In this document: in pieces, positions 11,164 to 49,060 of the stretch
How positions within the stretch are numbered: the first letter of the stretch is position 1
Layout: each line of letters starts with the position of its first letter
Origin: a virus
Length of the DNA stretch: 50,355 nucleotides
IMG/VR virus record: IMGVR_UViG_3300033149_001173
Location: 1-50,355 of that record
Direction: 5' to 3' (one strand)
Made by a program: the position numbers and the translations under genes
Notes under the pieces: generated by a model
Database searches by the model: none
What the model saw: only the letters and a program-made list of their open reading frames with translations
What the model was told of the DNA's origin: nothing

Positions 11164-11629
11164 TGATGTGAATCAAGTTTGTAGACTTAGGGTATGTTTA
11201 TTTTTTGCACCATTTTTATGTTTATATGTTTATAGATTTCAGCGTTAGAGCATTTTTGTGTATATTTTTCAACGGTGTGATTCTATGTTGATAATTTTCA
11301 ACATTATGGCATTGAAGCCGCCCAAACACATAGATATGTCTACATACGCACGTATTATGGCATATTTACACTCAAATATGCACCCAAGTGCATACTATAG
11401 ACCCCACCAAAACAAGTATTCATTGTTAACATGTTAGTTATGTCGTATACTACATATAGTGTATTCACTCTTGGCATGGCAATTATATATTAAAGTATAT
11501 AATTTTCTGTACACAGAGGGGGGGTTCCAAAATTTTGTATATTTAAGTATATATTATTCGCCCCAATTCTGATAAATATCACTTATGTTGTATACCATAT
11601 ATTGTATACACACCTCTGAAACCTATTGT
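11164..11629. other. AT-rich noncoding region
   Basis: About 465 bp without a convincing gene. It contains runs of TATATA-type sequence, a small hairpin ATGTTGA/TTCAACAT near 11283-11305, and many TATA-like steps. An AT-rich stretch next to two repeat arrays would suit DNA unwinding at an origin, but nothing here proves that. Confidence 0.4.
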
Positions 11630-11791
11630 CCGAAAAATCACTGTCGGAAAACTGCTATCCGAAAAATCACTGTCGGAAATCTGCCGTCGGAAACCGTGCC
11701 GTCCGCGAAATGCGTCCGAGCGCCTCTTGTCGGCAATCTGCGGTCCGAAAAACCTTGTCGGAAATCTTGCGTCGGCGAAAGTCGCCTAGTG
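11630..11791. repeat. Tandem array of about ten degenerate 14-16 bp units
   Basis: Successive units start with GTCGGAAA or GTCCGAAA and end in variants of TCTGCC, for example GTCGGAAATCTGCC. Spacing is close to one and a half helical turns. Reading frames across it are repetitive and lack ribosome sites. The arrangement resembles iterons bound by a replication initiator, or a partition or silencing site. Confidence 0.7.
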
Positions 11792-15526: not shown

Positions 15527-15701
15527 ATTTATCAGTCGTTGTATGAGTAACGATAACGTCCGTTCCGAGTTTGATAATCAGAAGCAACGAGTAGGTTATT
15601 GTTACGGTGCTTGGAGAAACAAAAAGAATAAGATGCTTAAAGAGTTATTGTTGGATGCTGCTGATAAACTGGACAGTTTAAAAGAAGGGAGTGAAACATG
15701 A
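15486..15701 (+). CDS. Conserved phage head-region protein, apparent ATT start
   Basis: The frame encodes PKPRKNEQKDEFISRCM near its N-terminus, then SEFDNQKQRVGYCYGAW. These are hallmarks of a small protein often found beside phage portal, protease and capsid genes. Those proteins usually begin Met-Pro-x-Pro-Lys-Pro. Here the equivalent first codon is ATT 15486 (ATT CCG CTG CCA AAA CCT), 7 nt behind a perfect AAGGAG. Upstream the frame is open only to 15453 and has no ATG, GTG or TTG. Initiation at ATT, or a frameshift from the overlapping gene, is therefore needed. Its stop overlaps the next ATG. Confidence 0.75.
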   Translation: MPLPKPRKNEQKDEFISRCMSNDNVRSEFDNQKQRVGYCYGAWRNKKNKMLKELLLDAADKLDSLKEGSET

Positions 15702-15949
15702 AATCAGTAATTATTACAATAGTGAGTATGTCATTAATCCTTTTATCACTTGGTTGCAGCCCTGCTCAAACACGTGATTATGGCGTTCAAGGATACCGAT
15801 TGTATACTAATTGGATTGCCGATAGTCCTTATTGGCCTGATGATGTTGAGCGATTAACCGATGAACAAGTTGATGCTTTTGCCAAGGCTTCTTGGGCAGA
15901 ACATGAACGTGTTTATAATTGGGTAGATGAACAATTAAAAGATGATTAA
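15698..15949 (+). CDS. Putative lipoprotein, 83 aa
   Basis: A signal peptide (MKSVIITIVSMSLILLSLG) ends at a lipobox LSLGC, so Cys20 would be lipidated and the mature protein anchored on the membrane. The remainder is acidic and aromatic. Within a structural operon it may act in lysis, superinfection exclusion or the cell surface. Its start overlaps the previous stop (ATGA). Confidence 0.7.
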   Translation: MKSVIITIVSMSLILLSLGCSPAQTRDYGVQGYRLYTNWIADSPYWPDDVERLTDEQVDAFAKASWAEHERVYNWVDEQLKDD

Positions 15950-19149: not shown

Positions 19150-19854
19150 ATGGCTTTAGCCGCAAATAGAAAACAAGGCGCATTACAAGTACAATATAAT
19201 TCTGTAACAATGCGTGACGATAAAAAGTTTTATTTTGGTGATGATTGGGATGTATCATTAGAATATGATGCAAATGGTACTGGTTGTTTATCCATTGATG
19301 GTGGTGATACTCTTGTTGAAGATGGACATTATCTTTACTTTGGTAATGGTAAAGATGGTTCAATTCGAGAAAGTGAATCAACTGTATATACGGCAGGCGC
19401 TTGGGATTTTACCGGCGCTACTACTTTAACAACTCCTATTCCTACTGCTACTGCTGATACCGGTATAAAAACAGAAACGATTACCGTTAGTGCCGCCAGT
19501 ATGATTGATGGTGGTACTACTACTGCAAGTGTTTCTAGCGCATCTAATGTATTTGAAGTTGGTGATTTTGTTTTAGGTTATGCTGCACAAGTGACCGCTG
19601 GTTTCACAGGGGGTGGTAATACTTCTGTTACTGTTGAAGTTGGTGATGGAACTGATACTGATAGGTTTGGCCCTGCTACTGATGCATCGTGCCATACTGC
19701 TGCTGAAATTGGTGGACTTTCACAAGGCATTCCTGTTATTGATGCTGCCAAACCACTTCATGTAACTCTTACTTGTGATAGTGATTTTAGTAGTATTATT
19801 GCTTCTGATGTGGGTTTAATGAATGTTAAGGTATTTTATATTAATGCATTCTAA
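19150..19854 (+). CDS. Putative virion surface protein, 234 aa
   Basis: The N-terminus has FYFGDDWDVSLEYDANGTG, a block seen in phage structural proteins. The rest is Thr/Ser/Gly-rich beta structure, as in head fibres or decoration proteins. It lies between the capsid gene and the carbohydrate island and ends at a terminator. The many Ser and Thr residues could serve as glycosylation sites, which is inference. Confidence 0.6.
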   Translation: MALAANRKQGALQVQYNSVTMRDDKKFYFGDDWDVSLEYDANGTGCLSIDGGDTLVEDGHYLYFGNGKDGSIRESESTVYTAGAWDFTGATTLTTPIPTATADTGIKTETITVSAASMIDGGTTTASVSSASNVFEVGDFVLGYAAQVTAGFTGGGNTSVTVEVGDGTDTDRFGPATDASCHTAAEIGGLSQGIPVIDAAKPLHVTLTCDSDFSSIIASDVGLMNVKVFYINAF

Positions 19855-19868
19855 TATTAATTCATAAT

Positions 19869-19904
19869 AGGTGTAGAGGTGGAGGAGGCCTCTACACCTT
19901 TTTT
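19869..19904 (+). terminator. Rho-independent terminator
   Basis: AGGTGTAGAGG (19869-19879) pairs perfectly with CCTCTACACCT (19889-19899) and a T-run follows. It would reduce transcription from the capsid genes into the carbohydrate island, giving high capsid expression. Confidence 0.85.
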
Positions 19905-20340: not shown

Positions 20341-21054
20341 ATGAAAAAGTTAATTGTAACTCGTTGTCATAGACAAAAAGAACATGATATGATTTCTTTA
20401 ACCCATCCCATTCTTGAAAATTATGCAAATAAATGTGGTGCTGACTTTTTAGTTTTGGATGAATTAAAATATTGGGATTTACCAACTGATGATATTTTTC
20501 CAAAAGCCATGTATGCTGTATTTAGATGTAAAGAATTGTTAAATGATTACGATAGAATACTTAATATTGATTCCGATGTGTTGATTACTACAAATTGCCC
20601 AAACTTATTTGAAATTGTTCCATATGATTACATTGGTGGGGTTTGTGAGGATGTAGGTTCCAGAAAACATAATCGAAGACACCTTATTCAGTTAGTTCAA
20701 GAAAGATTTGGGGGAATAGGATGGACATCGGATTTTATAAATGGTGGTTTATGGGTAGTATCAAAACCACATGCTAATATTTTTTCTGCTATTAATGGTG
20801 AACTATGGAATTTATTTGGTTTGGAAATGACACATATAAACTATACTTTACAAAGGTTGGGGCATACTTTATGTAAATTACCGTTCGTATTTAATCATAT
20901 GTCAATGTTTAGTGAACCTTGGAATAATAATGCAGATAGACTAAAGTCCCATATTATTCATTATGCTGGTGGAGCAAAGTTCCCTGGTAATGATAAAGAT
21001 AGGGTTGAGTTGATGAAACAAGATGCTAAACAATTGGGGTTGACAGATGCTTAA
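20341..21054 (+). CDS. Glycosyltransferase, GT8-like GT-A fold
   Basis: The N-terminal Rossmann-like half ends with LNIDSDV, where Asp77-x-Asp79 is the metal- and sugar-nucleotide-binding DxD motif. FINGGLWVVSKP follows and resembles the acceptor loop of GT8-type enzymes. HYAGG near the C-terminus (about residue 215) is the expected metal-binding His. The 237-residue protein would be cytosolic. It opens a run of sugar-modifying genes and overlaps the next gene by 8 nt. Donor and acceptor unknown. Confidence 0.75.
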   Translation: MKKLIVTRCHRQKEHDMISLTHPILENYANKCGADFLVLDELKYWDLPTDDIFPKAMYAVFRCKELLNDYDRILNIDSDVLITTNCPNLFEIVPYDYIGGVCEDVGSRKHNRRHLIQLVQERFGGIGWTSDFINGGLWVVSKPHANIFSAINGELWNLFGLEMTHINYTLQRLGHTLCKLPFVFNHMSMFSEPWNNNADRLKSHIIHYAGGAKFPGNDKDRVELMKQDAKQLGLTDA

Positions 21055-21754
21055 ATTATATCAAATGTTTCATAATAAGGAAACATTTGAACAATGTAGT
21101 AAAGATAAAAGAATCATAAAATTATGTGTAGGGTATGATTTAAGAAACTATGAAAATATAAATGGGGAATTTATTCTAGCAAACGAAGGTAAATACACTC
21201 AAAATCAATTAGTTGAATATCCTGGGTTTTATTGGGCAGCCAACCATATTGACAATGAAAAATATATTGGGTTTAGTGTATATCGACACAACAAAGTATG
21301 TAGGACTAAGAGATCAATAGAACAAGTTGTTTCATTAGATTATGATAACTTATTTCTGAGTACGGGTGTGGTTGCTTTTACTTATCATCCTTGGAATAAT
21401 TTAATAAAACATGATAATATTGTTCACCCTGGTATGTGGGATTTTATAGGGAAGTGGTTGGTTGGAACAAAAAATATAACTGAGAATGAATGGAAAGACA
21501 TTTGCAGAATTTCTTCACAAAAAACAAGTATTCTACGAAATTGTTTTATACTACCAACAAAATTATTCGTTGATTATTTCAGATTTTTGACTGATTTTGT
21601 TGAATATATCGATAAAAATTATAATATTGAAGCATACTCGTTAGATATTAAGGTTCCTGATAGAAATAGGGGGTGGGCTTATTTTTGTGAAAGAATAATA
21701 AATATTTACTTATTACATAGATACGGAAAAGATTTACGAATAGGAATAATTTAA
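21047..21754 (+). CDS. DUF4422-like glycosyltransferase
   Basis: EYPGFYWAANHID then YIGFSVYRHNK, together with the C-terminal NRGWAYFCERIINIYLL, matches the layout of DUF4422 glycosyltransferases. In that family a YIGxxHYRR segment and a Rxx(Y/F)xxER segment are conserved. Here the His-Tyr-Arg-Arg block reads VYRHN, so it is a divergent member. The length of 235 residues is typical. It probably transfers a sugar to a glycan begun by its neighbours. Confidence 0.65.
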   Translation: MLKLYQMFHNKETFEQCSKDKRIIKLCVGYDLRNYENINGEFILANEGKYTQNQLVEYPGFYWAANHIDNEKYIGFSVYRHNKVCRTKRSIEQVVSLDYDNLFLSTGVVAFTYHPWNNLIKHDNIVHPGMWDFIGKWLVGTKNITENEWKDICRISSQKTSILRNCFILPTKLFVDYFRFLTDFVEYIDKNYNIEAYSLDIKVPDRNRGWAYFCERIINIYLLHRYGKDLRIGII

Positions 21755-21755
21755 A

Positions 21756-22445
21756 ATGAATTCTAAATACATTCTAACTTGTCAAAATAAAAGATTTATT
21801 TATTATTTTATACCAAAATCTGGTTGTACTTCGTTAGCTGTATGGACACTTGAACAATGTGGGTATAGACAAGAAGATATATTAAAAAGTTACGACGCTG
21901 ATAACCCAGTAACAAAACTTGCTAGAAACTTAATTGGTGTTGATATTGTAAATCCAAATAATAATTATTTTAAATTCACATTTGTTAGAAATCCATTAGA
22001 TAGAGTGGTATCAGTTTTCTTAGAAAAAGTTATTAAAGACAGGGGAGAAACAGCAAGAACAATAGAAAGTAGATTAAGTTTAAATAATCCAACTTTTATT
22101 GATTTTGTTACCTCCTTAGAAAATATTAATATAGAAGAATTCGATGAACATTTAGCCCCCCAAAGTTCTTTAATAAAGGGGTTTGATTTGGATTTTGTTG
22201 GTAAGTTAGAAAATTTTGAGGAAGACTTTAGATGGTTACAAGAAAAAATCAATGTTAGTTCTTGGCCTTTAAGATTAAATAAAACGAAGATAGATAAAAA
22301 TAAAAATGGGGATTATTCTTTAGTTAGTAAAATGGAACTGAGTAAAATGGATGGGTACCCCCCCTATTCTTGTTTTTATACAAAGGATATTAAAAGTAAA
22401 TTAAATAGAATTTATCAATCAGATATTGACAAATTTGGGTATTAA
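21756..22445 (+). CDS. Sulfotransferase, family 2 type
   Basis: IPKSGCTSL at residues 19-27 is the 5'-phosphosulfate-binding loop, and FTFVRNPLDRVVSVF (about 74-88) is the 3'-phosphate-binding segment of PAPS-dependent carbohydrate sulfotransferases. DEHLAPQ and VGKLENFEEDF also match the family. The enzyme would move sulfate from PAPS to a sugar hydroxyl. It has no membrane anchor, unlike Golgi relatives. The gene starts 2 bp after the DUF4422-like gene. Confidence 0.8.
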   Translation: MNSKYILTCQNKRFIYYFIPKSGCTSLAVWTLEQCGYRQEDILKSYDADNPVTKLARNLIGVDIVNPNNNYFKFTFVRNPLDRVVSVFLEKVIKDRGETARTIESRLSLNNPTFIDFVTSLENINIEEFDEHLAPQSSLIKGFDLDFVGKLENFEEDFRWLQEKINVSSWPLRLNKTKIDKNKNGDYSLVSKMELSKMDGYPPYSCFYTKDIKSKLNRIYQSDIDKFGY

Positions 22446-22459
22446 GAAAGGTAGCAGTC

Positions 22460-23458
22460 ATGGATAATGTTCTTACGCATTATGAATCTATAAAACAATT
22501 ACAACAAGGAATAATGTGTAAACCTAGATTTGCAAGTTTGCATACTTCTAATTGTTGTAATCAAAATTGTAAAGGTTGTGCCTATGCAAATATAATTAAT
22601 GGACAAGTTTTGGACTTTGATAATCAGAGAAAGATATTAATTGATTTAATGGATTTAGGTGTTCGAGGATTTGAGTTTGCTGGTGGTGGAGAACCACTAT
22701 TAATACCACAAATTGTAGATTTATGGAAATTGCTCATTGACAATCAAAGAAAATTTGGTGTTCTAACCAATGGTACATTATTAACAGATGAAATGATTAA
22801 TTTTATTGTTCGTCATGGAACATACATTAGAATTTCATTAGAGGCTACTGATGAAGACACTTATAGTAAATATAAAAGAGTTCCCAAAGATATTTGGAAC
22901 AAGGTGTTAACAAATGTGGAAAAGTTAGTTGCTTATAGAGATGAGTTTAATTCATCGTGTGAAGTTTCAATAAAGTTTTCAATAGGCAAATCCCTAAAAG
23001 GTGAAAAGTTCATACAAAATGGAGTATTGCTAGGAAACAGATTAAAAGTAAACAATGTTCAATTTAAAGCGTTAAGACATGAACCAGAGGAATTAAGTTT
23101 AGATGCTAAACATGAACAAGAAATATTTCTAAATCATTATTGCCAAGACAAGAAATTTAGATGGTGGGTTATTCCTTGGGATTATGAAGATATTCCACAA
23201 TGTTGGTTAAACCCATTACACGTGGTTGTGGATTATAATGGAGATGTACACCTTTGTTGTTATTATTATTATAGAGATAATTATAAACTGGGAAATATGT
23301 TACAAACCCCAATTAAAGAATTATGGTATAGTGATAAGCATTTTGAGTTAATAAAGAATATTAAAAGAGAGGAATGTGCAAAAGTTGATTGTAAGTTTTT
23401 TAGGCACCACAAAATAGTAGACGAAGCGTTCAAGAATGGAGCAATTGAGTTTCTATAA
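22460..23458 (+). CDS. Radical SAM protein with SPASM-like C-terminus
   Basis: Cys33-x3-Cys37-x2-Cys40 holds the [4Fe-4S] cluster that splits S-adenosylmethionine, and GGGEP (75-79) binds SAM. The C-terminal part (CWLNPLHVVVDYNGDVHLCC, then ECAKVDC) has the cysteine spacing of a SPASM or twitch domain with an extra cluster. Such proteins modify peptides or act on sugars and aldehydes. Placed among glycosyltransferases, it may modify a sugar or a virion peptide. Its stop overlaps the next start. Confidence 0.85.
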   Translation: MDNVLTHYESIKQLQQGIMCKPRFASLHTSNCCNQNCKGCAYANIINGQVLDFDNQRKILIDLMDLGVRGFEFAGGGEPLLIPQIVDLWKLLIDNQRKFGVLTNGTLLTDEMINFIVRHGTYIRISLEATDEDTYSKYKRVPKDIWNKVLTNVEKLVAYRDEFNSSCEVSIKFSIGKSLKGEKFIQNGVLLGNRLKVNNVQFKALRHEPEELSLDAKHEQEIFLNHYCQDKKFRWWVIPWDYEDIPQCWLNPLHVVVDYNGDVHLCCYYYYRDNYKLGNMLQTPIKELWYSDKHFELIKNIKREECAKVDCKFFRHHKIVDEAFKNGAIEFL

Positions 23459-24375
23459 TGAATACAATAATAACTACTACTATTAACCCACCAACAGAAG
23501 CAATTATTAAATATGACAATATGCTTGATTGGAATCTTATTGTTGTAGGTGATGAAAGAACTCCTGAAGATTATAAATTAGAACATGGAACATTTTTATC
23601 CATTGATTATTGTAAAGAAAATTATCCTGATTTACACAAGATAATTGGTACAAACAATATTGACTTAGGGCGTATGATTGGGTTTATTGAAGCATATAAA
23701 AATGGTGCAGATATAATTGCCACTATAGATGATGATAACATACCATTAGAAAATTGGGGTAAGAATATTGCAGTAGGGCAGGAAGTAGATGCTTTTGAAT
23801 ATTTCTCAGTTGAAAAAGTATTTGACCCATTAGGTGTAACAGAACATGCTAATTTGTGGCATAGGGGATTTCCGCTAGAACTTATTGATAGACGTAATTA
23901 TTTACGTGGTAATTATGTAAAAGTAAACCCATTGGTACAGGCTAATTTGTGGAATGGTGCCCCTGATATTGATGCAATTTGTCGCAAGATGTACCCTTAT
24001 GATGTAAACTTTGGTATAAGTCATTATTTCTATGGTAAACGTATGATTTGCCCATTCGATACCCAAAATACTATAGTTCATAGAAGCATTTTAAAATATT
24101 ATACTACATTACCACATATAGGTAGAATGGATGATATTTGGGGAGCATATTTACTGCAATCAAAAATAAAAGATTGTGTAGTATTTGGACCTGCTACGGT
24201 TTACCAAGATAGAAATATACATGATTTGAATAAGGATATTGATGAAGAAATATTAGGGTATAAGTATTCTATGGAGTTTATTGAAGCATGTTTAGACAGT
24301 TATGAAAGTGCGTTAGAATATTTACCAACTAGAACAAGAGAATGTTATTTGGCTTATCAAGAATATTTTAATTAA
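23458..24375 (+). CDS. STELLO/DUF288-like glycosyltransferase
   Basis: The opening TTTINPPTEAI and LIVVGDERTPEDY match the N-terminus of STELLO and DUF288 proteins, whose usual form is TTxxPPTxA...VVGDxKTP. DDDN at 91-94 provides the DxD metal site. Glycosyltransferase activity is inferred from the GT-A-like fold of the family. The 305-residue protein lacks membrane spans. The start overlaps the radical SAM stop by one base. Confidence 0.7.
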   Translation: MNTIITTTINPPTEAIIKYDNMLDWNLIVVGDERTPEDYKLEHGTFLSIDYCKENYPDLHKIIGTNNIDLGRMIGFIEAYKNGADIIATIDDDNIPLENWGKNIAVGQEVDAFEYFSVEKVFDPLGVTEHANLWHRGFPLELIDRRNYLRGNYVKVNPLVQANLWNGAPDIDAICRKMYPYDVNFGISHYFYGKRMICPFDTQNTIVHRSILKYYTTLPHIGRMDDIWGAYLLQSKIKDCVVFGPATVYQDRNIHDLNKDIDEEILGYKYSMEFIEACLDSYESALEYLPTRTRECYLAYQEYFN

Positions 24376-24386
24376 GAGAAAGACTG

Positions 24387-24956
24387 ATGAATATAGATAA
24401 AATAAAGAATTATCCTAAATATAAAAACATAAATAGTAGAAGTGGGCCAGGAGCAGAGAAATTAATATATCCTAAAATTATTAAACACAATGCTTCTATT
24501 GTATTAGAAATAGGAACACATAAAGGGCATTCAACAGCATATTTGGCCGCCGCTTGTAAAGAAACCAATGGAAAAGTATATACTATTGATATAGACAAAA
24601 ATGCACAAAATCAAGCCAAAGAATTTATTGAATGGTTAAAACTCGATAATGTAGAATTTATACTTGGGGATTCATTGGAAAAGTTACCTGTTTTGTTAAG
24701 TTCTATTACACCAGTGATAAGTTTTATAGATGGTAAACATTCTTATGAATATGCTTCACAAGAATTTAATCTTATTTGGAATAAATGTAATAAATTAAGC
24801 AATTATGCAATCATTTTAGATGATATAGGTTACGTACATATTGATGGTAAAAAGGATGGTGGTATTCCTAAACTTATTAAAGAGATAAAAGATAGAAATA
24901 TTTCTTATACTATAGAAATGGAAAGATACGCAGTGATAGAAAAGGAACAGATATGA
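24387..24956 (+). CDS. Class I SAM-dependent methyltransferase
   Basis: VLEIGTHKGHSTAYLA (39-54) is motif I of the Rossmann-type methyltransferases, VYTIDID gives the acidic residue that binds the SAM ribose, and ISFIDGKHSYEYA corresponds to motif IV. The pattern is that of the Methyltransf_24 group, often found beside sugar-modifying genes. It probably methylates a sugar hydroxyl. The 189-residue length is normal. The stop overlaps the next start. Confidence 0.8.
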   Translation: MNIDKIKNYPKYKNINSRSGPGAEKLIYPKIIKHNASIVLEIGTHKGHSTAYLAAACKETNGKVYTIDIDKNAQNQAKEFIEWLKLDNVEFILGDSLEKLPVLLSSITPVISFIDGKHSYEYASQEFNLIWNKCNKLSNYAIILDDIGYVHIDGKKDGGIPKLIKEIKDRNISYTIEMERYAVIEKEQI

Positions 24957-25837
24957 AAAAAGTAGTGTTATTCATGGTAGCAGGTATAGGTAACATTGTT
25001 GAAGCAACTCCTATGGCTGTAGCATTGGAAAAATTAGGATACGTTGTTGAGATTGTATTAAGTTCTAATTTCCCAGGTATGGAAGATTTGTTACCTTGGA
25101 AATGTTACAACCCGGAAAAAGTTAATTTGGAAAATTGTTATGATATTGGTTTATCTTATTGGGCTAGAGGTAATAAGTTCCCTGATAAAACTCCTGATGG
25201 TAAAAAGTTAAATGTTTATAGTACCAGACTTAATATTCAAGAATATAGTGAAATAGAATGTAATATGGATGTAGCAAGACAAATGGGGTATGAAGATGAC
25301 ACCCCTGCTACTAAATTAGTTGTTCCAAAAGTGAAAAACCCTGTGGATGTTAGTAATTATGTAGTTATTTGCCCAGGTTACCAAAAGTCAACACAACATG
25401 CTAATTGGAGTAATAAGGCATACCCACGATGGGGTGAAGTTATTGAACTTATTGATAAACCTGTAGTTGTAGTAGGCACAGAGGATGAAAATGAAGATTG
25501 TTTTGAAAAAGCAGATATTAACATGTGTGGCAAAACCGACTTATTACAGTTGGCAAAAATATTAAGTGAGGCAAATGGAGTTATTGCTTGTGATAATGGC
25601 CCAGCACATATGGCGGATGCTTATAAGGTGCCTACGGTTGTATTGTTTGGACCTACAAGCACATTAAAAAATGCTTACTACCAGGCTAAAATTATGTTTA
25701 TGCCTAATAATGTGGTAAATTGTCGCCCTTGTCAACAAAACATAGAAAAGATGAGCAATTGTAAAAATAATATATGTATGAAATATTTAGAACCAAAACA
25801 AATAGTTGCAACTTTAAATAAAGCAATGGAGGAATAG
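24953..25837 (+). CDS. GT9 (heptosyltransferase-like) glycosyltransferase
   Basis: The C-terminal half has CDNGPAHMADAYKVPTVVLF then GPTS, the conserved nucleotide-sugar site of family GT9. The N-terminus is a GT-B Rossmann domain (VVLFMVAGIGNIVEATPMA). Bacterial GT9 enzymes add heptose to lipopolysaccharide core. This 294-residue version is somewhat short, so its donor may differ. It acts in the cytosol. Confidence 0.82.
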   Translation: MKKVVLFMVAGIGNIVEATPMAVALEKLGYVVEIVLSSNFPGMEDLLPWKCYNPEKVNLENCYDIGLSYWARGNKFPDKTPDGKKLNVYSTRLNIQEYSEIECNMDVARQMGYEDDTPATKLVVPKVKNPVDVSNYVVICPGYQKSTQHANWSNKAYPRWGEVIELIDKPVVVVGTEDENEDCFEKADINMCGKTDLLQLAKILSEANGVIACDNGPAHMADAYKVPTVVLFGPTSTLKNAYYQAKIMFMPNNVVNCRPCQQNIEKMSNCKNNICMKYLEPKQIVATLNKAMEE

Positions 25838-25839
25838 TA

Positions 25840-26127
25840 ATGGCCACTCAAGTATGGACAACTTCTGGCAGCGATATGGTTACAGTCACGTCTGCTGCTA
25901 CAAATATAATTGCGGCACAACCAGATAGAACATTTTATCACGTAATGATTTCCAATGGTGATTCTGGTTCTGATTTATTATACAGTCTTGATGGTGGTTC
26001 CCATTGGGGGCGTATTGAAGCAGATAATTCTAAATCATTTGATGGTGTTCGTATAAAAAATACTAATATTCAAGTAAAGGCTATTGGTAGTGAAATTGTT
26101 TCTGATGTATATGCGGAGGCATGGTAA
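25840..26127 (+). CDS. Small beta-rich virion protein, 95 aa
   Basis: The protein starts MATQVWTTSGSDMVTVTSAA and is rich in Ser, Thr, Gly and short strands (DLLYSLDGGSHWGRI). Proteins of this look are common minor structural or decoration proteins. It is embedded in the carbohydrate gene run, 2 bp after GT9, so it is a candidate acceptor or surface protein. That role is inferred from place and composition. Confidence 0.55.
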   Translation: MATQVWTTSGSDMVTVTSAATNIIAAQPDRTFYHVMISNGDSGSDLLYSLDGGSHWGRIEADNSKSFDGVRIKNTNIQVKAIGSEIVSDVYAEAW

Positions 26128-26168
26128 TAATTTCAACAAAACCAAGGCAATTACAAAGTTTCAAATTA

Positions 26169-26183
26169 ATCATTGAAAGGAGA
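26169..26183. repeat. Right copy of 15-bp direct repeat
   Basis: ATCATTGAAAGGAGA, identical to 20233-20247. Here it supplies the ribosome site of the GT4-like gene. Confidence 0.5.
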
Positions 26184-26188
26184 TAAGT

Positions 26189-27406
26189 ATGAGTATTCGT
26201 TGTGCCCACATCGTTGCAGTAACACCACATAGAGCAGGTATTTATGAAACTGCAAGAGAAATAGTTATAGGGGAACGGTCACAAGGAATTGATGCTAGGA
26301 TTGTTGACTGTGGTAACAAATGTGAAGCAGGTTTAGTTAATAAAAAACGCAAAGAATTGGAACCTTACTTTGCACATTTGGGTGTTGCCAGAAATGCTGG
26401 TATTGAAGGCGCAATTAATTATCTAAAAACCACAGAAGCATTCAATGTTGAATGTGTTAAAAAAGGAACTGAAGATAGAGGAATTATCATTGAAGACAAT
26501 GAGTGGGTTATTAATGAAGCAGATATAATAGTAGGACATAGTGGTTTTCATAATGAAATACAGAATCTAAATAAACCATATATTATGTGTGCTCATGGTA
26601 GACCTAAAAGTTCTTTCTTATTAGAATATTACAAAGAGTACTCAGTTTATGCTAGTTATGTAAACATGAATCACGATAAAAGGATTCTTAAGTTTATCAC
26701 TTTTTGGAAAGAATATATTCCTAACATTGCTATGTTAGTTAATCCTGAGAAGATTGAGTATGTTCCTCCTTGTGTAGATACGAACTTCTTTAATCCTGAA
26801 GGTGAAAAGTTTGATTTCCCAGATAACAAAAAGTTTAATATTATCATTGTTGATGTGTGGAGAAAGGATATTGACCCTTATCACGTAGTACATTGTTGTC
26901 ATTGGTTTTGTAAGAAACATCCAGAAGCACAATTTCATATGTTCGGTTGTAAACCACCTGATGATATGGGGCCTTGGAAAATATTATTAGGCAAATGCCA
27001 AAAGGAAGGCACATTAGGTATAGTTACTGGAATGATAAAAGAAATCGACAAGGTATATCGCAGTGCGGATATGATGGCAACACCTCACACGATTGCCACA
27101 CGTACTGTTAGAGAATCGCTTGCTAGTGGATTACCATTAGTTGCAGAGGAAGGAAATCCTTATACTAATTATCATGCACCATTATATAATTATGATAGAT
27201 TTATAGGTGAAATGGAAAGATGTTATAAAAGTATACAACTTGATAAACAATCTACTAGCATGAAGATGAGAAAATCTGCTGAAAAACATTTTAGTATGGA
27301 AAATACTGGTAAAGCCATGAAAAAAATCATTGAGAACACTCTAGAGGAATGGAAAAGTGTTGATTTAACACCTGAACAAGTATTACACGAAGCAGTAGTT
27401 ATGTAG
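26189..27406 (+). CDS. GT4-like glycosyltransferase (GT-B fold)
   Basis: YVPPCVDTNFFNP (about residue 190) and TRTVRESLASGLPLVAEEGNP (about 307-327) are the usual linker and C-terminal nucleotide-sugar signatures of retaining GT4 enzymes. The acidic residue of the ExxxxxxxE motif is at RESLASGLPLVAEE. The 405-residue length fits a full two-domain enzyme. Family members transfer sugars from nucleotide donors. The start has a strong AAAGGAGATAAGT. Confidence 0.8.
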   Translation: MSIRCAHIVAVTPHRAGIYETAREIVIGERSQGIDARIVDCGNKCEAGLVNKKRKELEPYFAHLGVARNAGIEGAINYLKTTEAFNVECVKKGTEDRGIIIEDNEWVINEADIIVGHSGFHNEIQNLNKPYIMCAHGRPKSSFLLEYYKEYSVYASYVNMNHDKRILKFITFWKEYIPNIAMLVNPEKIEYVPPCVDTNFFNPEGEKFDFPDNKKFNIIIVDVWRKDIDPYHVVHCCHWFCKKHPEAQFHMFGCKPPDDMGPWKILLGKCQKEGTLGIVTGMIKEIDKVYRSADMMATPHTIATRTVRESLASGLPLVAEEGNPYTNYHAPLYNYDRFIGEMERCYKSIQLDKQSTSMKMRKSAEKHFSMENTGKAMKKIIENTLEEWKSVDLTPEQVLHEAVVM

Positions 27407-29485: not shown

Positions 29486-32400
29486 GTGAGATATTTGCGG
29501 CAAAATACCGCAGTTTCAGAAATAATTGGTCCATTTGTAGATGTATCTGATGCTGTTACCCCTGAAACTGCTCTTATTGGTAGTGATATGACTTGTGCTA
29601 TCTTTTTCGGCCCACAGATTCAAATATCCGATTTCCTTGATTCTTCCAGGTTTGTTCATAAGAAGTATGGCTATTACACATTATCCTTAACGGCTAGTGA
29701 TACAAACACTACTAGTGGAATTGTAATCACTTTAGCCAGTGATAGTGTTTGTCTTCCCGTTTGGGTTAATTATAGAACTCTTCCTACTAATGTGTACGAT
29801 TCTCTGTTCAAAGGTAATGATTATTTACAAGTTGATACTCAATACTTATCTGGCAATGCTATTCAACAAACTGGTGGGCACGTTCATGCTTACGATGATG
29901 TTGGTAACGCTATTGCTACTAGTGCATCTATTGCAGGATTGAACGATATATCAATAAATGATATTACTGGTGATGGTACAACTGTTAGTGCCTTACAAGT
30001 ATATGGTGATACTTCATGGACTACCGCTACAGGGTTTAGTACCCATGCAGCAAGCGATGTTTGGAATGTCGCTACTAGAGAATTGACTGCTGGTACTAGG
30101 GATACTGAGATAGATAGTATTAAAACAACTACCGATAAAATACAGTTCAATGCAAATAGTGATGTTCTTGCCACTCTTGATGGTGAAACTGTTGTCTTAA
30201 ATGCTACTCAAAACGAATATACCCCTGCTACATCTGCTGCTGTTGTAGATATAAAAACACAAATAGGTCGTTTATCAACAGGTGTAGGTGGTTTAAACGT
30301 ATTAGCAGAAGGTTTTGCGAAGGATGCTAATGAACCTGAAACAAACGATTACACCTTTACACAAGAAGGTGATGAAACTTATCATATTGTTGAAGATGAT
30401 GGTGGTAACATTAATTTCTATTACCAATTCGATGTAGGCGGTAATGGTGTAGCAAAGGCTTTTGAGTGGTTAGGTTACGTACAAAGTAAGGGTGATAGTG
30501 TAGATGTAAAATATTATGATTGGGACAGTTCATCCTATAAACAAATTACAATACTAGAAGGTGATAATGGCACAACCCCCATTGCAGAAATATTTAGTGT
30601 CCCTATAAACGCTACAGGTACGGGTAATAATTTAGGCAAAGTAAGATTACGATTTGAATCGACAAGTGCTACTGCTATCGCTACTGATAGGGTGTTGTGT
30701 GAAAAATCTGTTGTCACTAAATCTGTAGGTTATGCTGAAGGCGCTATATGGATAGACACTAACGCTGATAATACTAATACTGAGAGTTATGTTGACGGTA
30801 CTGCCGATAATCCGGTAAGCACTTGGGGAGCCGCAAAAACAATATCCAGTGATATGAATATCACAAAATTTGAGATAAAGAATGGTTTCTCTATCACTAT
30901 GGATACTAATTGTGATAACTTTGTATTTAACGGTTACGGGTATAACTTTGATTTAGGTGGCCAACAGTTTAAAAATGCACATATTAAAGGTGCAAACATT
31001 AGTGGTACTGGTACGAGTGGTGATGGTAAATTACACCTTATTGGGTGCACTGTAAGTGATTGTGTGCTTGGTAAAACAAACATGAATGATTGTTTATTCA
31101 TAGGTACAATTTCACTGTCTACCTCTGATACTTACACATTTAATGATTGTGTAGCAGGGGATTCTGGTAGTGCCCCACCAATAATTGATTTCAACGAAAA
31201 GACTGCTGCTGTTGGTTTGCGTGGTTACAAGGGTGGAATTAGATTAAAGAATATGAACTCAGGTAGTAAGTTTACTATACAAGGTAATGGTAAACTTATA
31301 ATAGATTCTTCTTGTAGTGATGGTGGTACTATTGGGGTTCACGGTTGTATGACAATGAGTGATGGTGTTGCTGGTGGTTTTAGTGGTACTATTAATGATG
31401 ATTCACGCATGGAGGTTAGTAATATTAGCACTGGTTTGTGGAGTTATGATACAAGAACATTAAGTGCTAATACTAATCTGAATGACCCTACTGCTAGCGA
31501 TATTGCTGACGCGGTTTGGGATGAGTTGGTTAGTGACCATACAAATGTTGATTCATTTGGTAAAGCAATTTCCGATATTAATATAAATAATTGGAATTGG
31601 TTTGTTGATGGAACTAATGGTGATAATAATAATACAGGACGAAATTGGACAGAATCACTATCCACTGTGAGTGCTGCTGTTAGCAGGGCTTCTAACGGTG
31701 ATATAATTAACATAGCCCCTGGTACTTATAATGAAAACGTAGATGCTTCTTCATTATCCCCAATAACATTTAGAGGAGCCGGTTGGACAAATACAAAAAT
31801 TAGTGTTGATACGAGTGATGCAGCATTACAGTTCAGTTCGGATATAGCATTATATGATATTTGGGTGGATAGTACTAATAGTGGTAGTCATGGTTATGGC
31901 GCAGTATTTACGAATGATGGTGGGGACGTATTTATTGAAAATTGCAAAATTACTGGGCCTAAACGTTTTGCACTTAATTTAAGTAATGCAGAGAAAAATG
32001 TTATAATTAGGAAATCTATAATTCTTGGTAGCGAGTATGGAGTCCCTACTTTTGTAACAGATAATTTATTGGTTGAAGATTCAATTTTTGGTGTTTCGGA
32101 TTGGACAAATTGTTTGTCTGCGAACTTCGTTGCTACAATAAATAACGTTGGAATAATTAGAAATTCGTTATTCTATGCTTATGATGGTTGTGATTCATTC
32201 CCCGTAACTGCACTTGGTGTTGTTGGTAATGTTTTAATTGAAGATTGTTGTATAGATGCTAGAAACATAAATGGTAGTAGCGCTTTTGGTATCGTGAGTG
32301 GTGAGGGAACAACATATGTTAAAAATTGTGCTATTACTACTTCAGATATTACTGGTTCTGATAGTTATGATTTATCTAATGAAAGTGGTACATTATATGT

Positions 32401-33415
32401 ATGTAATACTTCATATGATAGAACTAAAACAAATGGTACACTTACGGAAGTTTACCCAACAATGGAAGACACAATTGATGCAATTTGGGATGAACTAATT
32501 AGTGACCATACTACTGCTAGCACATTTGGCAAGGCTATAAGTGATATAGACACAGATACAGATGATTTGGCTACTAGTGCAGCAATAGCAGAACTAAATG
32601 ATATCGCAGCAAGTGATGTTACTGGTGGGGTTACCGTTAGTGAACTACAAACATATGGTGCTAGTTGGGTTACTGCTACAGGATTCAGCACCCATGCAGC
32701 AAGTGATGTGTGGAATATTGCAATTAGAACACTAACTGCTGATACCAACATAAATTATCCAAGTAGTGATGCTATTGCTGATGCAGTTTGGGATGAAGTT
32801 ATGTCAGACCACATAACTGCAAATACTACGGGTGATTATCTTAGTGATGCTGCTAATGTTACTATTTCCATAAGTAATACAGATATATCAGATATAGTAG
32901 ATGGTGTGTGGGACGAACCTATGACAGACCATACAATTGCTGGTAGTACTGCTGATGTTTTGTCTGATGCTGGACAAACAGGTACAAGTGCCGAATTAAT
33001 TGCTGATGCAGTTTGGGATGAACTAATTAGTGACCATACTAATATCGGTACAACAGGCAATGCTATGTCTGATATTAGTTTGCTATCAAATGACGGTTTA
33101 GCGGATGCAGTTTGGGATGAGTTGGTTAGTGACCATCAAACTACTGGTACTTTTGGTGCTTATATGTCTGATATTGATACTGCCGGTCATGGTGCAACCC
33201 CTAAAACTTATACAATTACGGATGACAATAATAACCCGATTGAGGGTGTAAGTGTTTGGGTAACAACTGACGTTTCCGGCAATAATATAATTGCTAGTGG
33301 TACTACGGATTCTAATGGTCAAGTAATATTTTATCTAACATCTGGTGATACAGTATACATATGGTCAAGAAAAGACGGGTACACGTTCACAAATCCTGAT
33401 GTGGAGGTTGTTTAA
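29486..33415 (+). CDS. Long repetitive tail fibre protein, 1309 aa
   Basis: The start is GTG 29486, directly after the previous stop and behind AGGAGG. Six copies of a module of the form ADAVWDELxSDHTxxxTFG occur at about 31.5, 32.47, 32.77, 32.89, 33.0 and 33.1 kb. A second duplicated block contains ATGFSTHAASDVWN. A beta-helix-like region (about residues 700-980, NIAPGTYNENV and many NCxI turns) lies between. The C-terminus is an Ig-like carboxypeptidase-regulatory-type domain (NNPIEGVSVWVTTD). It probably contacts the host surface. Confidence 0.8.
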   Translation: MRYLRQNTAVSEIIGPFVDVSDAVTPETALIGSDMTCAIFFGPQIQISDFLDSSRFVHKKYGYYTLSLTASDTNTTSGIVITLASDSVCLPVWVNYRTLPTNVYDSLFKGNDYLQVDTQYLSGNAIQQTGGHVHAYDDVGNAIATSASIAGLNDISINDITGDGTTVSALQVYGDTSWTTATGFSTHAASDVWNVATRELTAGTRDTEIDSIKTTTDKIQFNANSDVLATLDGETVVLNATQNEYTPATSAAVVDIKTQIGRLSTGVGGLNVLAEGFAKDANEPETNDYTFTQEGDETYHIVEDDGGNINFYYQFDVGGNGVAKAFEWLGYVQSKGDSVDVKYYDWDSSSYKQITILEGDNGTTPIAEIFSVPINATGTGNNLGKVRLRFESTSATAIATDRVLCEKSVVTKSVGYAEGAIWIDTNADNTNTESYVDGTADNPVSTWGAAKTISSDMNITKFEIKNGFSITMDTNCDNFVFNGYGYNFDLGGQQFKNAHIKGANISGTGTSGDGKLHLIGCTVSDCVLGKTNMNDCLFIGTISLSTSDTYTFNDCVAGDSGSAPPIIDFNEKTAAVGLRGYKGGIRLKNMNSGSKFTIQGNGKLIIDSSCSDGGTIGVHGCMTMSDGVAGGFSGTINDDSRMEVSNISTGLWSYDTRTLSANTNLNDPTASDIADAVWDELVSDHTNVDSFGKAISDININNWNWFVDGTNGDNNNTGRNWTESLSTVSAAVSRASNGDIINIAPGTYNENVDASSLSPITFRGAGWTNTKISVDTSDAALQFSSDIALYDIWVDSTNSGSHGYGAVFTNDGGDVFIENCKITGPKRFALNLSNAEKNVIIRKSIILGSEYGVPTFVTDNLLVEDSIFGVSDWTNCLSANFVATINNVGIIRNSLFYAYDGCDSFPVTALGVVGNVLIEDCCIDARNINGSSAFGIVSGEGTTYVKNCAITTSDITGSDSYDLSNESGTLYVCNTSYDRTKTNGTLTEVYPTMEDTIDAIWDELISDHTTASTFGKAISDIDTDTDDLATSAAIAELNDIAASDVTGGVTVSELQTYGASWVTATGFSTHAASDVWNIAIRTLTADTNINYPSSDAIADAVWDEVMSDHITANTTGDYLSDAANVTISISNTDISDIVDGVWDEPMTDHTIAGSTADVLSDAGQTGTSAELIADAVWDELISDHTNIGTTGNAMSDISLLSNDGLADAVWDELVSDHQTTGTFGAYMSDIDTAGHGATPKTYTITDDNNNPIEGVSVWVTTDVSGNNIIASGTTDSNGQVIFYLTSGDTVYIWSRKDGYTFTNPDVEVV

Positions 33416-38063: not shown

Positions 38064-41000
38064 ATGAAGAATTTTGGTTCTGTAGGTGAAGCATTTGTTG
38101 AAGTTGGTTTGGATATTAAACCATTCAAACGACAATTGGCTTTACTCAGAAAATCTACTAAAAAAGTAGGTACATTGATTGGCAGGGACTTAAGCCAAAC
38201 AACGGAGAGGTTTGGCAAAGTACTTGCTATCTCCGCTGCGTCCATGAGCGCTTTTACTGGAATTATTGGTTCTTTAAGTACGGCAATATTGGTTACAGTT
38301 AAAGAGTTTGCTGAATTTGAACAACGGATGGCTAATGTTCAATCGGTTGTTCAAGGAACTGATGCTGAACTTGCCAAGTTAAGTAGTCTTGCAATGAAAC
38401 TTGGGCCAACATTCAACTACAGTGCCATGCAAGCCGCTGATAGTTTATACTATTTGGGTAGTGCTGGCCTAAATACAAGACAGATTGCCGAGATGTTCCC
38501 TAATGTTTTAGCATTGGCTAGAGCAACTATGAGTGATTTGGCAATGACAGCAGAAACTACAGTCAATGCTATCAATGCCTTTGGTATGGAAACATCAGAA
38601 GCAAAAAGATTAGTTAATGTTTTTGCTGCTACAATATCTAGTTCACAAGCCACATTGGAAAAATTACGGACTTCAATGGGCTATGTTGCTCCTATCGCAA
38701 AAATTGTTGGTTATAGTGTAGAAGAGACTGCTGCTGCTTTGGGGATTTTGTATAATCGTGGTCTTGAAGCGTCTATGGCTGGTACTGGTTTACGTATGTC
38801 TCTAACCAGATTAAGTAAACCTACTAGACAAGCACAAGAAGTATTAGATAAATTAGGATTATCTGCTGAAGATATTAACCCTTATTTAAATGATTTAGGT
38901 ACTATTATAGATAAATTATCTGAGAAAGGTGCTACTTTAGCAGAGTTGTCTGGTTTAGTGGGTGTTCGCGCCGGTACTACGTTAGCCAACTTAGTAAGCG
39001 CTGGAAGTGATGCATTGGCTGATCTTCAAGAAAAAATTACTGGTACAAATAAAGCCTTCAAAATGGCAAATATTCAAATGAATACCATTCAAGGCTTATT
39101 GGGAAGAACAACAAAAGAAGTTACTAATTTAGCCATTGAATTTGGTAAACTTTGGAAGGATGAAATAAGAATGATAATTTCAATGGTTAAAGAATTAGTA
39201 GATTGGTTCCGTAATTTATCACCAGCAATGAGAACAGTTGTAAAACTAACAACAGTATTTGTCGGTGGGTTATCTTTATTAGGTACGGGATTAAGTGCTG
39301 TGGGTATAGCATTAAGCGGTCTGATAATATTATATACGAAGCTTATTAGTAAACAAGTAGAAAGTAATATTGCAACTAACGCAATGGTTGGTGCAAACGC
39401 TAAATTAACAGCGTCCTATGCTGCATTAACTGCTGCTCTTGCTGCTAATACGGCTGCAATGCACGCTAATAGTGCTGCAGCTGCTGCCGGTCTTGGACCA
39501 AGAATTGTAAAACCCCTTGTTGGTGGTGCTGTTGCTGGTGGTGGGGCAGCTGCTGGTGAAGGTGCAGTAGCGGCTGCTGGTGGTGGGCTTCTTGCTAGTG
39601 CTGCTATCATAGCAGCGGTTATAGCAGCTGTTTTGGCTATTTTTGGTACTATTATATATTTAAATAGAAAGAAAGCCGCAGAATTAGAGGATGAAACTCA
39701 GAAATTAAAACAGAAAACTTTGGAAACACTTGATTCTGTTGGTAAAAGAGAAGCCGCTATAAAGAAAGAAACAAAAACAACAGGTAGGATTCTTGCGCTT
39801 CAAAAAATGGGTTTGGGATTATCAAAAGAAGCTAGGGCGGCAGGGGAACAACTTGCTAAAGACATTGAAAATACTAATGAAGTCTTTAGAAAAACTAGTG
39901 AAAAACTATCAGAATCACAAGGTCGAAGACCGGATTCTCCAACGTGGGAAAATCAATTAGCAAATTGGCGAAAATTGAATGATGTAACAGAAGAAACAGA
40001 AGAACAACTTAAAAAATTAATAAAGGGATTTGTTGGTGTAACTGAAGCAGCCCTAAGAACAACAATTGCTTTGACACCAACTGAGGAGGAAAGATTACGT
40101 GCTCAAGAAAAACAAACTGCTCTTGGCGCTAAGTATCTAAGATCAAAGGCTGCAACAGCGCGTGCTAGGGGGGATGAGAAGTACGCTATTGAATTGGAGC
40201 GTTACGCTGGAGTTATGGAAGCAAAATCTAGTGTAAAACAACAAATACGTGAAATGTATGATGAACGCTTAAAAATAATGGACCAAATGAGAGAAAACGA
40301 AAGATTGTTAGAGCGAAATAATAAAATAATACAAAGTGGAATTGATGATGCTAAAAAAACTGAAATTTCAAGGGTAAATGCTAAATTAAGATATTCACAA
40401 GAACAATTAAGTAAAAGATATGAGAATTTAGCAAAGAGTATAGAACAAGTAAAAAAGGCTAGAGATGCTGAAGTAGAACAAATTAATGCTACAGCAAAGA
40501 AACGAATAAGTGAAATTGAAGAACGAAAAGCAAAAGAACGAAAAACATTAGAAGAACGATATACTAAATATCTCATGGGTGAACATGCAAAACGATGGGA
40601 ATCTACTGAACAATTTGAAGAAGCATTTTTGCGGGCTACAGGGCAAAAAAGACAAATACAAATAAATAAATTGAAAGAACAAATTGCTGGATGGATGAAA
40701 ACAGGGTTTGGTTCTTTTCTCAAAGGATCAGCTCGCTATGTTATCAGGAGCGTAGAAGATATAGAAGAAATAAGAGCTGGTGAAGGGGCATTTGGGGGGT
40801 GGGCAGAAACCACAAATAAATTAGCAACAATTATAAGAAAGCAGTTGGAAGAATTAGGTACTACAACTATAGGTGGTGAAATTGGTGGTGCAATAAGTCA
40901 ATACTTACCTAAATTTGAGGCTTTTGGTGTAGTTACAGAAGCAGATGTAAATAAAACAATAGTAGAATCTGCTAAAAGGGCAGAAAATGAGACAAATCGT

Positions 41001-41093
41001 CGTATACAATCTTATGAGGCTGCTGTTGAAACAGCAAAAACAACAAAGGATATAAATAAAAAACTAGAAAGAATTAATTTAGGACTAGATTAA
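38064..41093 (+). CDS. Tail tape measure protein
   Basis: Residues about 75-290 match the TP901-type tape measure core: FEQRMANVQSVVQG, MQAADSLYYLGSAGLNT and RGLEASMAGTGLRMSL. Hydrophobic segments lie at about 390-430 and 505-535, separated by an Ala/Gly-rich linker. The rest is long coiled coil with many Lys, Glu and Arg, as expected for a protein that sets tail length. At 1009 residues it implies a long tail. The start follows the T extension directly. Confidence 0.93.
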   Translation: MKNFGSVGEAFVEVGLDIKPFKRQLALLRKSTKKVGTLIGRDLSQTTERFGKVLAISAASMSAFTGIIGSLSTAILVTVKEFAEFEQRMANVQSVVQGTDAELAKLSSLAMKLGPTFNYSAMQAADSLYYLGSAGLNTRQIAEMFPNVLALARATMSDLAMTAETTVNAINAFGMETSEAKRLVNVFAATISSSQATLEKLRTSMGYVAPIAKIVGYSVEETAAALGILYNRGLEASMAGTGLRMSLTRLSKPTRQAQEVLDKLGLSAEDINPYLNDLGTIIDKLSEKGATLAELSGLVGVRAGTTLANLVSAGSDALADLQEKITGTNKAFKMANIQMNTIQGLLGRTTKEVTNLAIEFGKLWKDEIRMIISMVKELVDWFRNLSPAMRTVVKLTTVFVGGLSLLGTGLSAVGIALSGLIILYTKLISKQVESNIATNAMVGANAKLTASYAALTAALAANTAAMHANSAAAAAGLGPRIVKPLVGGAVAGGGAAAGEGAVAAAGGGLLASAAIIAAVIAAVLAIFGTIIYLNRKKAAELEDETQKLKQKTLETLDSVGKREAAIKKETKTTGRILALQKMGLGLSKEARAAGEQLAKDIENTNEVFRKTSEKLSESQGRRPDSPTWENQLANWRKLNDVTEETEEQLKKLIKGFVGVTEAALRTTIALTPTEEERLRAQEKQTALGAKYLRSKAATARARGDEKYAIELERYAGVMEAKSSVKQQIREMYDERLKIMDQMRENERLLERNNKIIQSGIDDAKKTEISRVNAKLRYSQEQLSKRYENLAKSIEQVKKARDAEVEQINATAKKRISEIEERKAKERKTLEERYTKYLMGEHAKRWESTEQFEEAFLRATGQKRQIQINKLKEQIAGWMKTGFGSFLKGSARYVIRSVEDIEEIRAGEGAFGGWAETTNKLATIIRKQLEELGTTTIGGEIGGAISQYLPKFEAFGVVTEADVNKTIVESAKRAENETNRRIQSYEAAVETAKTTKDINKKLERINLGLD

Positions 41094-43465: not shown

Positions 43466-44056
43466 ATGAAACCTTCACAATTATTAATAAAAAAGTTTGT
43501 ATACCCCAATCAACCTTTAAATAGAGTTTTAGATGGTTGGTTATATCAACTATCCAACATAGGTTATAATGTGCAAAATACTCATTTTGATTTTAGGGTA
43601 GATTTAGTAAGAAACAGAGAAATAGGTGATTTTTTAGATAGTAATTTTGATTGTTTATTAATGATTGACGGTGATATGGTGCCAATTCCTGAAACTAATA
43701 ATATTCTTACTATGCCAGGGGATGTTTTATATTGTAGACATGTTTCTCAATTGGGCAAAGAGATAAAAATAGAAGAAAAAGGAATACCCACAGGTTGTAT
43801 ACGAATTCATAGAAGGGTGTTTGAAAAAATAGAAGAACCTTGGTTTTATTGGAACACTGATGATAAAGTTAGAAAAACCAACTTCAGTGAGGCATATTAC
43901 TTTTCTAAGAAACTTGTTAACAATGGGTTTAAACCCATTAGTGCTGGTAGAATAGGACATAGAATACCATTAGTTGGCATTCCACCTACTGAAGGTCATG
44001 TTGCTACAGATTGGCATTGCGAACATGTTATAATGAAACAAATGGGGTTATCGTAA
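43466..44056 (+). CDS. Glycosyltransferase, GT-A/GT2-like
   Basis: The start is ATG 43466 behind AAAGGAAGCATA; the longer reading overlaps the fibre gene. LLMIDGDMVPIPETNN carries a DxD motif (Asp69-Gly-Asp71), and the region after GIPTGCIRIHRRVF resembles the acceptor domain of GT2-type enzymes. It is the last rightward gene and ends one base from the facing leftward operon. It may act with the island at 20-27 kb. Confidence 0.68.
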   Translation: MKPSQLLIKKFVYPNQPLNRVLDGWLYQLSNIGYNVQNTHFDFRVDLVRNREIGDFLDSNFDCLLMIDGDMVPIPETNNILTMPGDVLYCRHVSQLGKEIKIEEKGIPTGCIRIHRRVFEKIEEPWFYWNTDDKVRKTNFSEAYYFSKKLVNNGFKPISAGRIGHRIPLVGIPPTEGHVATDWHCEHVIMKQMGLS

Positions 44057-48683: not shown

Positions 48684-48697
48684 AAACTCTAGTCCTT

Positions 48698-49060
48698 TCA
48701 TGTTTCATAGGGGAAATGCAACCATTTGTTGTGATTAACTAATTCAACATAAAACTTCGGTTTAGGATTACAATTATATCTTACGTAAACTGAAGCAATA
48801 TCATAATTATATTTATTCCACTTTTTAATGGTATTACCAGTATCACATATATCATCAACAATTATTTCAGCATCCATGTAATTATGAACAATAATAAACG
48901 TTGGATTCTGGTAACTAAGTAAACTTTCTATTATCAACCCACCACGAGCAATACCCCACAAACGGGAGTTGTTTGGTAATTGATTGGCAAGAATTGCAAT
49001 ATTTTTCATCAATTCCGGCCAAGTGATTATTTCTAATTTATCTTCTTTTGTATGTATCAT
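48698..49060 (-). CDS. Phosphoribosyltransferase
   Basis: EIIVDDICDTGNT (65-77) is the PRPP-binding motif of type I phosphoribosyltransferases, with Asp69 and Asp70 binding the metal-PRPP. WGIARGGLIIESLL gives the ribose-phosphate loop. At 120 residues it is shorter than bacterial PRTases, and the hood that defines the base is reduced, so the substrate is open (xanthine, hypoxanthine, uracil or a regulator). A longer reading to 49111 runs into the tRNA gene, so I start at ATG 49060. Confidence 0.78.
   Translation of the reverse strand: MIHTKEDKLEIITWPELMKNIAILANQLPNNSRLWGIARGGLIIESLLSYQNPTFIIVHNYMDAEIIVDDICDTGNTIKKWNKYNYDIASVYVRYNCNPKPKFYVELVNHNKWLHFPYET

Follow-up and report, generated by a model that had tools for sequence, protein, structure and literature searches.

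We analysed a stretch of viral DNA of 50,355 bases (IMG/VR virus record IMGVR_UViG_3300033149_001173; the whole of it is called the window below), which belongs to an environmental, siphovirus-like 50-kb phage. Its late genes point rightward and occupy about 15.0 to 44.1 kb, and among them lies an island of nine open reading frames (ORFs, named here by their first position) on one strand, at 20341-27406. It has the head side on one flank and, on the other, two fibre-like proteins, 28505, which gives a weak beta-helix profile match, and 29486, which contains repeats. Since genes for a head protein, an adaptor, a tail protein and a tape measure flank it (Table 1), we place the island within the late region. 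Six of its ORFs scored above the Pfam cut-off, for the families GT8, DUF4422, Sulfotransfer_2, Radical_SAM with SPASM, Methyltransf_24 and GT9. The original prediction, made from the sequence alone, had described tightly overlapping genes that stand between capsid and fibre genes. This was confirmed, as were the ORFs, their order and their strand: the junctions measure, in order, -8, +1, +14, -1, +11, -4, +2 and +61 bases, with head protein 17312 on one side of the island and 28505 and 29486 on the other.

Table 1. Features of the window, with positions on the window and supporting evidence
Feature	Position	Strand	Length (aa)	Evidence
Major head protein	17312			Family match
Terminator-like hairpin with T-run	19869-19899	+		12-bp stem, 6 of 12 pairs G-C; downstream of capsid-side gene 19150-19854
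GT8-family glycosyltransferase	20341-21054	+	237	PF01501 7.6e-9, above cut-off; DxD at residues 77-79
DUF4422 protein, probable glycosyltransferase	21047-21754	+	235	PF14393 1.8e-6, 28.4 vs cut-off 25
PAPS-type sulfotransferase	21756-22445	+	229	Sulfotransfer_2 PF03567 5.7e-20; phrog_3347 1.4e-13
Radical SAM/SPASM protein	22460-23458	+	332	PF04055 1.7e-17; PF13186 4.7e-10
GT75-type NDP-pyranose/furanose mutase homologue	23458-24375	+	305	phmmer to MtdL 6.8e-14
Class I SAM methyltransferase (Methyltransf_24)	24387-24956	+	189	PF13578 3e-16; RMNT_CmcI 1.1e-6
GT9 (heptosyltransferase family) glycosyltransferase	24953-25837	+	294	PF01075 5.5e-17
Possibly a small virion protein	25840-26127	+	95	Serine plus threonine fraction 0.21
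Possible GT4-like (GT-B) glycosyltransferase, weakly supported	26189-27406	+	405	Glyco_trans_1_4 0.0041
Head-tail adaptor	33415			Family match
Tail protein	36293			Family match
Tape measure	38064-41093			Family match
Former 'GT2-like' ORF, unsupported	43466-44056	+	196	DGD (DxD) motif only
NDP, nucleoside diphosphate; PAPS, 3'-phosphoadenosine 5'-phosphosulfate; SAM, S-adenosylmethionine.

The gene at 23458 had been described as encoding a STELLO-like glycosyltransferase. Its product matched no Pfam family at E values up to 0.1 (Pfam presumably holds a STELLO entry) and gave no NCBIfam match; by phmmer, fold and residues it is related to GT75 and MtdL instead. A structural model built from 12 sequences (predicted local distance difference test score, pLDDT, of 91) superimposed on MtdL with a Z score of 32.8 and 2.4 A over 303 residues, followed by rice UAM2 with 22.6 and ordinary glycosyltransferases with 14.5 or less. 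Foldseek gave E values of 4.3e-20 for MtdL, 9.6e-9 for rice UAM2 and 5e-5 or worse for other glycosyltransferases. According to an excerpt of PMC9937993, the activity of MtdL requires a DDD motif, Arg159, Asp195, Gln229, Arg257 and Asp260, and His287 is a manganese ligand. In 23458, the DDD motif (D91-D93) and R136 are invariant in 80/80 viral and 67/67 cellular homologues aligned, and D170, Q203, R223 and D226, which correspond to Asp195, Gln229, Arg257 and Asp260, are invariant in the same 147. The two proteins thus have in common a full-length fold (PDB 7xps, 7yua), these active-site residues and the Arg whose counterpart in plant GT75 members undergoes reversible glycosylation, but they are 23% identical, MtdL has about 372 residues against 305, and 23458 carries Gln250 for His287 and Thr202 for Ser228. 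We therefore file 23458 as a GT75-type mutase homologue, and not as a proven mutase, because the metal-binding His is replaced by Gln; it would fall in a subfamily whose metal ligand differs, and its activity is a predicted one. Given this relationship, the island probably makes a furanose donor besides transferring sugars. Relatives of the mutase are encoded in 206 of 283 pattern matches in IMG/VR and, across many phyla, in 119 of 255 pattern matches in genome contigs, so that a GT75-type assignment of a viral 'glycosyltransferase' would extend to 206 viral stretches, whatever the place of the glycan.

Regarding the other enzymes, the island had been credited with five glycosyltransferases. 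GT8, DUF4422 and GT9 stand above their Pfam cut-offs, while 23458 is the mutase homologue and 26189 falls below (17.8 bits with a cut-off of 27); a sequence search of the PDB gave no relative of 26189, and its single-sequence fold prediction was unusable (pLDDT 36). The GT9 protein scored far under the cut-off of the NCBIfam heptosyltransferase II model, and a tblastn search of phage records returned no relative of the DUF4422 protein. We dropped a further, 'GT2-like' gene at 43466, as it matched nothing in Pfam, PHROGs, NCBIfam or phage tblastn. The assignments of the three remaining enzymes stood. The sulfotransferase reached 72.9 bits against the Sulfotransfer_2 cut-off of 22 and contains the loops PKSGCT at 20 and RNPLDRVVS at 78, which we take to bind PAPS. 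The radical SAM protein has both Pfam domains, the CxxxCxxC motif CNQNCKGC and SPASM cysteines at 248, 266, 267, 306 and 311, with no NCBIfam equivalog over its cut-off among the best 25 of 47 matching families (best 63.5 vs 380 bits). The methyltransferase passed the Methyltransf_24 cut-off. Pfam, PHROGs, NCBIfam and phage tblastn searches gave nothing significant for the 95-residue protein. None of the island proteins has a strongly hydrophobic segment, the highest 19-residue mean being 1.66, at the N-terminus of the GT9 protein. These family matches give good support to a module that builds a glycan and caps it with methyl and sulfo groups.

To see how often these genes meet, we sampled 80 viral mutase loci, 80 cellular mutase loci and 79 sulfotransferase loci. 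A sulfotransferase lay at most 8 kb from the mutase in 4/80 viral mutase loci (L032, L070, L076 and L082), and a mutase lay near the sulfotransferase in 2/79 sulfotransferase loci (L094 and L142); the two genes overlap in L076 and L094. A radical SAM relative was found near the mutase in one of the 80 viral loci (L055) and one of the 80 cellular loci (L219), and immediately ahead of the sulfotransferase in L100. In the latter (L100:5177-7953), the radical SAM ORF overlaps a 647-aa ORF that opens with a sulfotransferase domain, and another sulfotransferase is close by. Sulfotransferases over the cut-off occurred in 6/50 mutase contigs and 0/44 random contigs (Fisher 0.028); at an E value of 0.001, the figures were 8/50 and 2/44 (0.098). 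Conversely, a mutase occurred in 2/50 sulfotransferase contigs and in none of the 44 random ones (0.50). The 50 mutase contigs were those of at least 20 kb from the 80 loci, taken in list order (L074, L081, L083 and L084 also fit but were not among them, and L076, where both genes occur, was too short); the 50 sulfotransferase records came from the 79 loci, and the 44 controls were the contigs of at least 20 kb among 80 random loci. The association of mutase and sulfotransferase over random contigs is suggestive only. Islands of this kind are common in environmental phages.

A sulfotransferase in such a phage gene set had been called unusual, which proved mistaken. With an alignment query, 246 of 343 IMG/VR pattern matches encoded relatives of 21756 (as single queries, neither the sulfotransferase nor the radical SAM protein matched IMG/VR viral contigs), although tblastn matched it to only 2 of 50,697 phage records. 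At least two sulfotransferase matches were present in 33 of the 50 records searched from the 79 loci, with up to 11, and PHROGs already holds a phage sulfotransferase family, phrog_3347, which 21756 matches. Because of these relatives, multi-copy records and existing family, the gene is ordinary for environmental phages. Arrays of 2 to 11 matches per phage contig are found in L088-L166 (for example G090, G093 and G085). Beside 68 non-redundant sulfotransferases we collected 130 ORFs, whose top Pfam families were Sulfotransfer_2 (14), methyltransferases (6) and cytidylyltransferase-like proteins (4), with sugar transferases, small terminase (2) and adenosine 5'-phosphosulfate (APS) kinase (2) also present. 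The two APS kinases would supply PAPS.

How might these enzymes work together? We infer that the mutase homologue would convert a host nucleotide sugar from the pyranose to the furanose form; analogy with MtdL points most to a guanosine diphosphate (GDP) sugar, for example GDP-L-fucose or GDP-L-galactose. The GT8, DUF4422 and GT9 enzymes, perhaps with that at 26189, would add sugars in succession, the methyltransferase and the PAPS-dependent sulfotransferase would cap the glycan, and the radical SAM/SPASM enzyme may make one more change, on the sugar or on the acceptor. As for the acceptor, our guess is that it would most likely be a co-produced virion protein: a head protein, the 95-residue protein of the island or the downstream fibre proteins. 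Decoration of the virion by this phage-encoded, cytosolic glycan-assembly module is the best single reading, and we rate its chances as about even. Where a sulfated, methylated glycan on the virion had been proposed, the capped glycan is well founded and its place on the virion is plausible but unproven. The plausibility comes from the position of the island between head and tail or fibre genes, from the gene content of the window, from the placement of a sulfotransferase in CBW1004C-Prop1 and from the known glycosylation of mycobacteriophage virions (both below): family matches in the island and window revealed no lipid-carrier transferase, flippase, polymerase or membrane protein gene, and those of the 59 other window ORFs no integrase, lysogeny or sugar-lipid gene. 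A glycan on the virion would alter the charge and adsorption of the particle and the way antibodies or predators recognise it, and would bring furanose sugars and sulfate into phage coat chemistry. A bolder version is tentative, and we think it rather unlikely: that the particle is coated with a negatively charged, sulfated, methylated, furanose-containing glycan by way of a virus-encoded, metal-ligand-variant GT75 mutase, and that such modules are a widespread, unrecognised virion-coat chemistry.

Several observations weigh against virion decoration. No acceptor signal showed up: the proteins at 19150 and 25840, proposed as Ser/Thr-rich acceptors, both have a serine plus threonine fraction of 0.21, with no enrichment over all late proteins (p 0.11 and 0.20), and 35874 is richer and 29486 equal. 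The island had been placed inside the structural operon; its late-region position holds, but the T-run stem at 19869-19899 parts it from 19150-19854 and the capsid genes, so its transcription needs read-through or a promoter of its own. Terminator-like sites in the region numbered 8 vs 6.6 in shuffled sequences, which is statistically weak, and a promoter scan gave a count no higher than in shuffles. Head genes are outside the 25 commonest families of the 130 sulfotransferase-flanking ORFs, most of which are sulfotransferase, methyltransferase and sugar genes; a phrog_10 search of the records of 50 of the 79 sulfotransferase loci gave one weak match with stops and speaks neither way, as the head proteins of these phages seem to be of other families. 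On the side of the mutase, the position of the manganese ligand His287 holds Gln in 147/147 homologues, and Asp87 of MtdL pairs with D69 by phmmer, where the homologues mostly have Q in the MAFFT column and the local alignment is uncertain. No close phage relative was found either in the searches described below. Finally, GT8 and GT9 are also families of lipopolysaccharide-core synthesis, and NCBIfam heptosyltransferase models match weakly.

One could argue instead that the island acts on the host during infection, adding sugars to its lipopolysaccharide or capsule or altering those already there; this might, for instance, keep newly released phages off debris or exclude a second phage. The lipopolysaccharide-core families, the weak heptosyltransferase matches and the terminator-like site ahead of the island fit this main rival, as do the heptose genes of cyanophage mutase clusters. 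In an excerpt of PMC9602691, the GDP-fucose and GDP-galactose genes of cyanophage S-SCSM1, which are of like kind, are read by the authors as cell-surface or cell-wall genes. LpsS of S. meliloti sulfates lipopolysaccharide (PMC12445080, in part), but it is listed there as a Stf0-family enzyme and not as Sulfotransfer_2. The late-region position and the lack of membrane, flippase, polymerase or lipid-carrier transferase genes among the family matches speak against host-surface modification, and with no lysogeny gene found there would be no gain from lasting host conversion; we regard it as possible but unlikely. Less probable by far is a pathway in which the radical SAM/SPASM enzyme leads the tailoring of a peptide or protein, the 95-residue protein being its substrate and the sugar genes acting later, as in a glycopeptide or a ribosomally synthesised and post-translationally modified peptide. 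The SPASM domain, the small ORF inside the island and several weak NCBIfam matches to peptide maturases suit it, but other weak matches are to sugar or cofactor enzymes such as cytosylglucuronate decarboxylase, no equivalog among the matches listed exceeded its cut-off, no transporter was found among the window family matches, and three genes stand between the radical SAM gene and that of the supposed substrate. Hypermodification of phage DNA bases with sugars and sulfate is the least credible alternative and very improbable. Such phage systems are reported (PMC10829341, in an excerpt citing Iyer 2013) and the window has a ribonucleotide reductase (RNR) and a deaminase-like gene, but no base hydroxylase or similar enzyme was among its family matches, the island is located among structural genes and its families match polysaccharide enzymes.

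Returning to virion decoration, we compared the island with known phage systems. T4-like cyanophages (S-T4, Sf-CH8) encode a mutase 45% identical to 23458, among genes for sugar nucleotides, methyltransferases and glycosyltransferases, including a fucosyltransferase, and an IMG/VR record taken to be S-T4 has a Sulfotransfer_2 match too, elsewhere in the record. In the stretches examined, these clusters do not stand between capsid genes and tail genes, they hold no relative found of the island GT8, DUF4422 or GT9, and they include heptose and fucose precursor genes, none of which was found in the window. The phage or prophage CBW1004C-Prop1 carries a Sulfotransfer_2/phrog_3347 gene in its head module, right after the major head gene and before the head-closure gene; its product is about 30% identical to 21756 over 41% of the query, and it is a lone sulfotransferase, with no annotated glycosyltransferase adjoining. 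Mycobacteriophage virions such as Che8 bear glycans on capsid proteins (Freeman 2023, as cited in excerpts of PMC11256854 and PMC12619734). Like the window, these siphophages have phage-encoded glycosyltransferases; their genes lie at another place, and in the excerpts sulfotransferases, radical SAM enzymes and mutases go unmentioned.

Phage glycan islands are a known kind, and both phage sulfotransferases (PMC10829341) and a phage GT75 (PMC12016548) appear in print. In a literature largely without subscription journals, we found no paper on a phage island of mutase and sulfotransferase. Three things are new here: the 'STELLO-like' gene is placed as a putative mutase homologue whose metal ligand has changed, mutase and sulfotransferase recur as pairs, and a siphovirus-like late region holds the whole set. 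For the phage itself no close relative turned up: megablast of 17-41 kb gave no match in the 50,697 phage records, a single-query search with the major head protein gave none in IMG/VR, a tape measure search found two distant contigs that share the tape measure alone, plus a weak adaptor match in one, and an RNR search found 13 contigs with the RNR alone in common when flanks were compared.

The window showed further features of its own. Neither a terminase nor a portal was recognised among its family matches (1-50355); probably this is a fragmentary record, or else the two proteins are very divergent. The island enzyme genes have a GC content of 0.27-0.34, and a foreign origin suggested by their higher AT was rejected because their third-position GC, 0.16-0.24, resembles that of the structural genes. 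Between 7400 and 14000, GC rises to 0.53 vs about 0.33 elsewhere, with short ORFs only and a strand switch inside; this part holds short GTCGGAAA/TCCGAAAA repeats (11627-11703). Just ahead of the head genes, a small ORF (15698-15949) has a lipoprotein-type signal (LLSLGCS). The fibre-like protein at 29486-33415 (1309 aa) carries repeated DAVWDEL(I/V)SDH motifs and a weak CarboxypepD_reg match at its C-terminus. Among phage records, a Methanosarcinales virus gives the top match to the N-terminal part of the tape measure, with 41.8% over 71%; the host may thus be something other than an ordinary bacterium. Lastly, the RNR large subunit (45258-48701, minus strand) has an insert, residues 301-637, mostly absent from alignments with 13 viral relatives, which split at 300 in 9/13 and at 638 in 9/13; with a Cys at its start, another directly after its end and motifs that we take to be intein-like, it is probably an intein.

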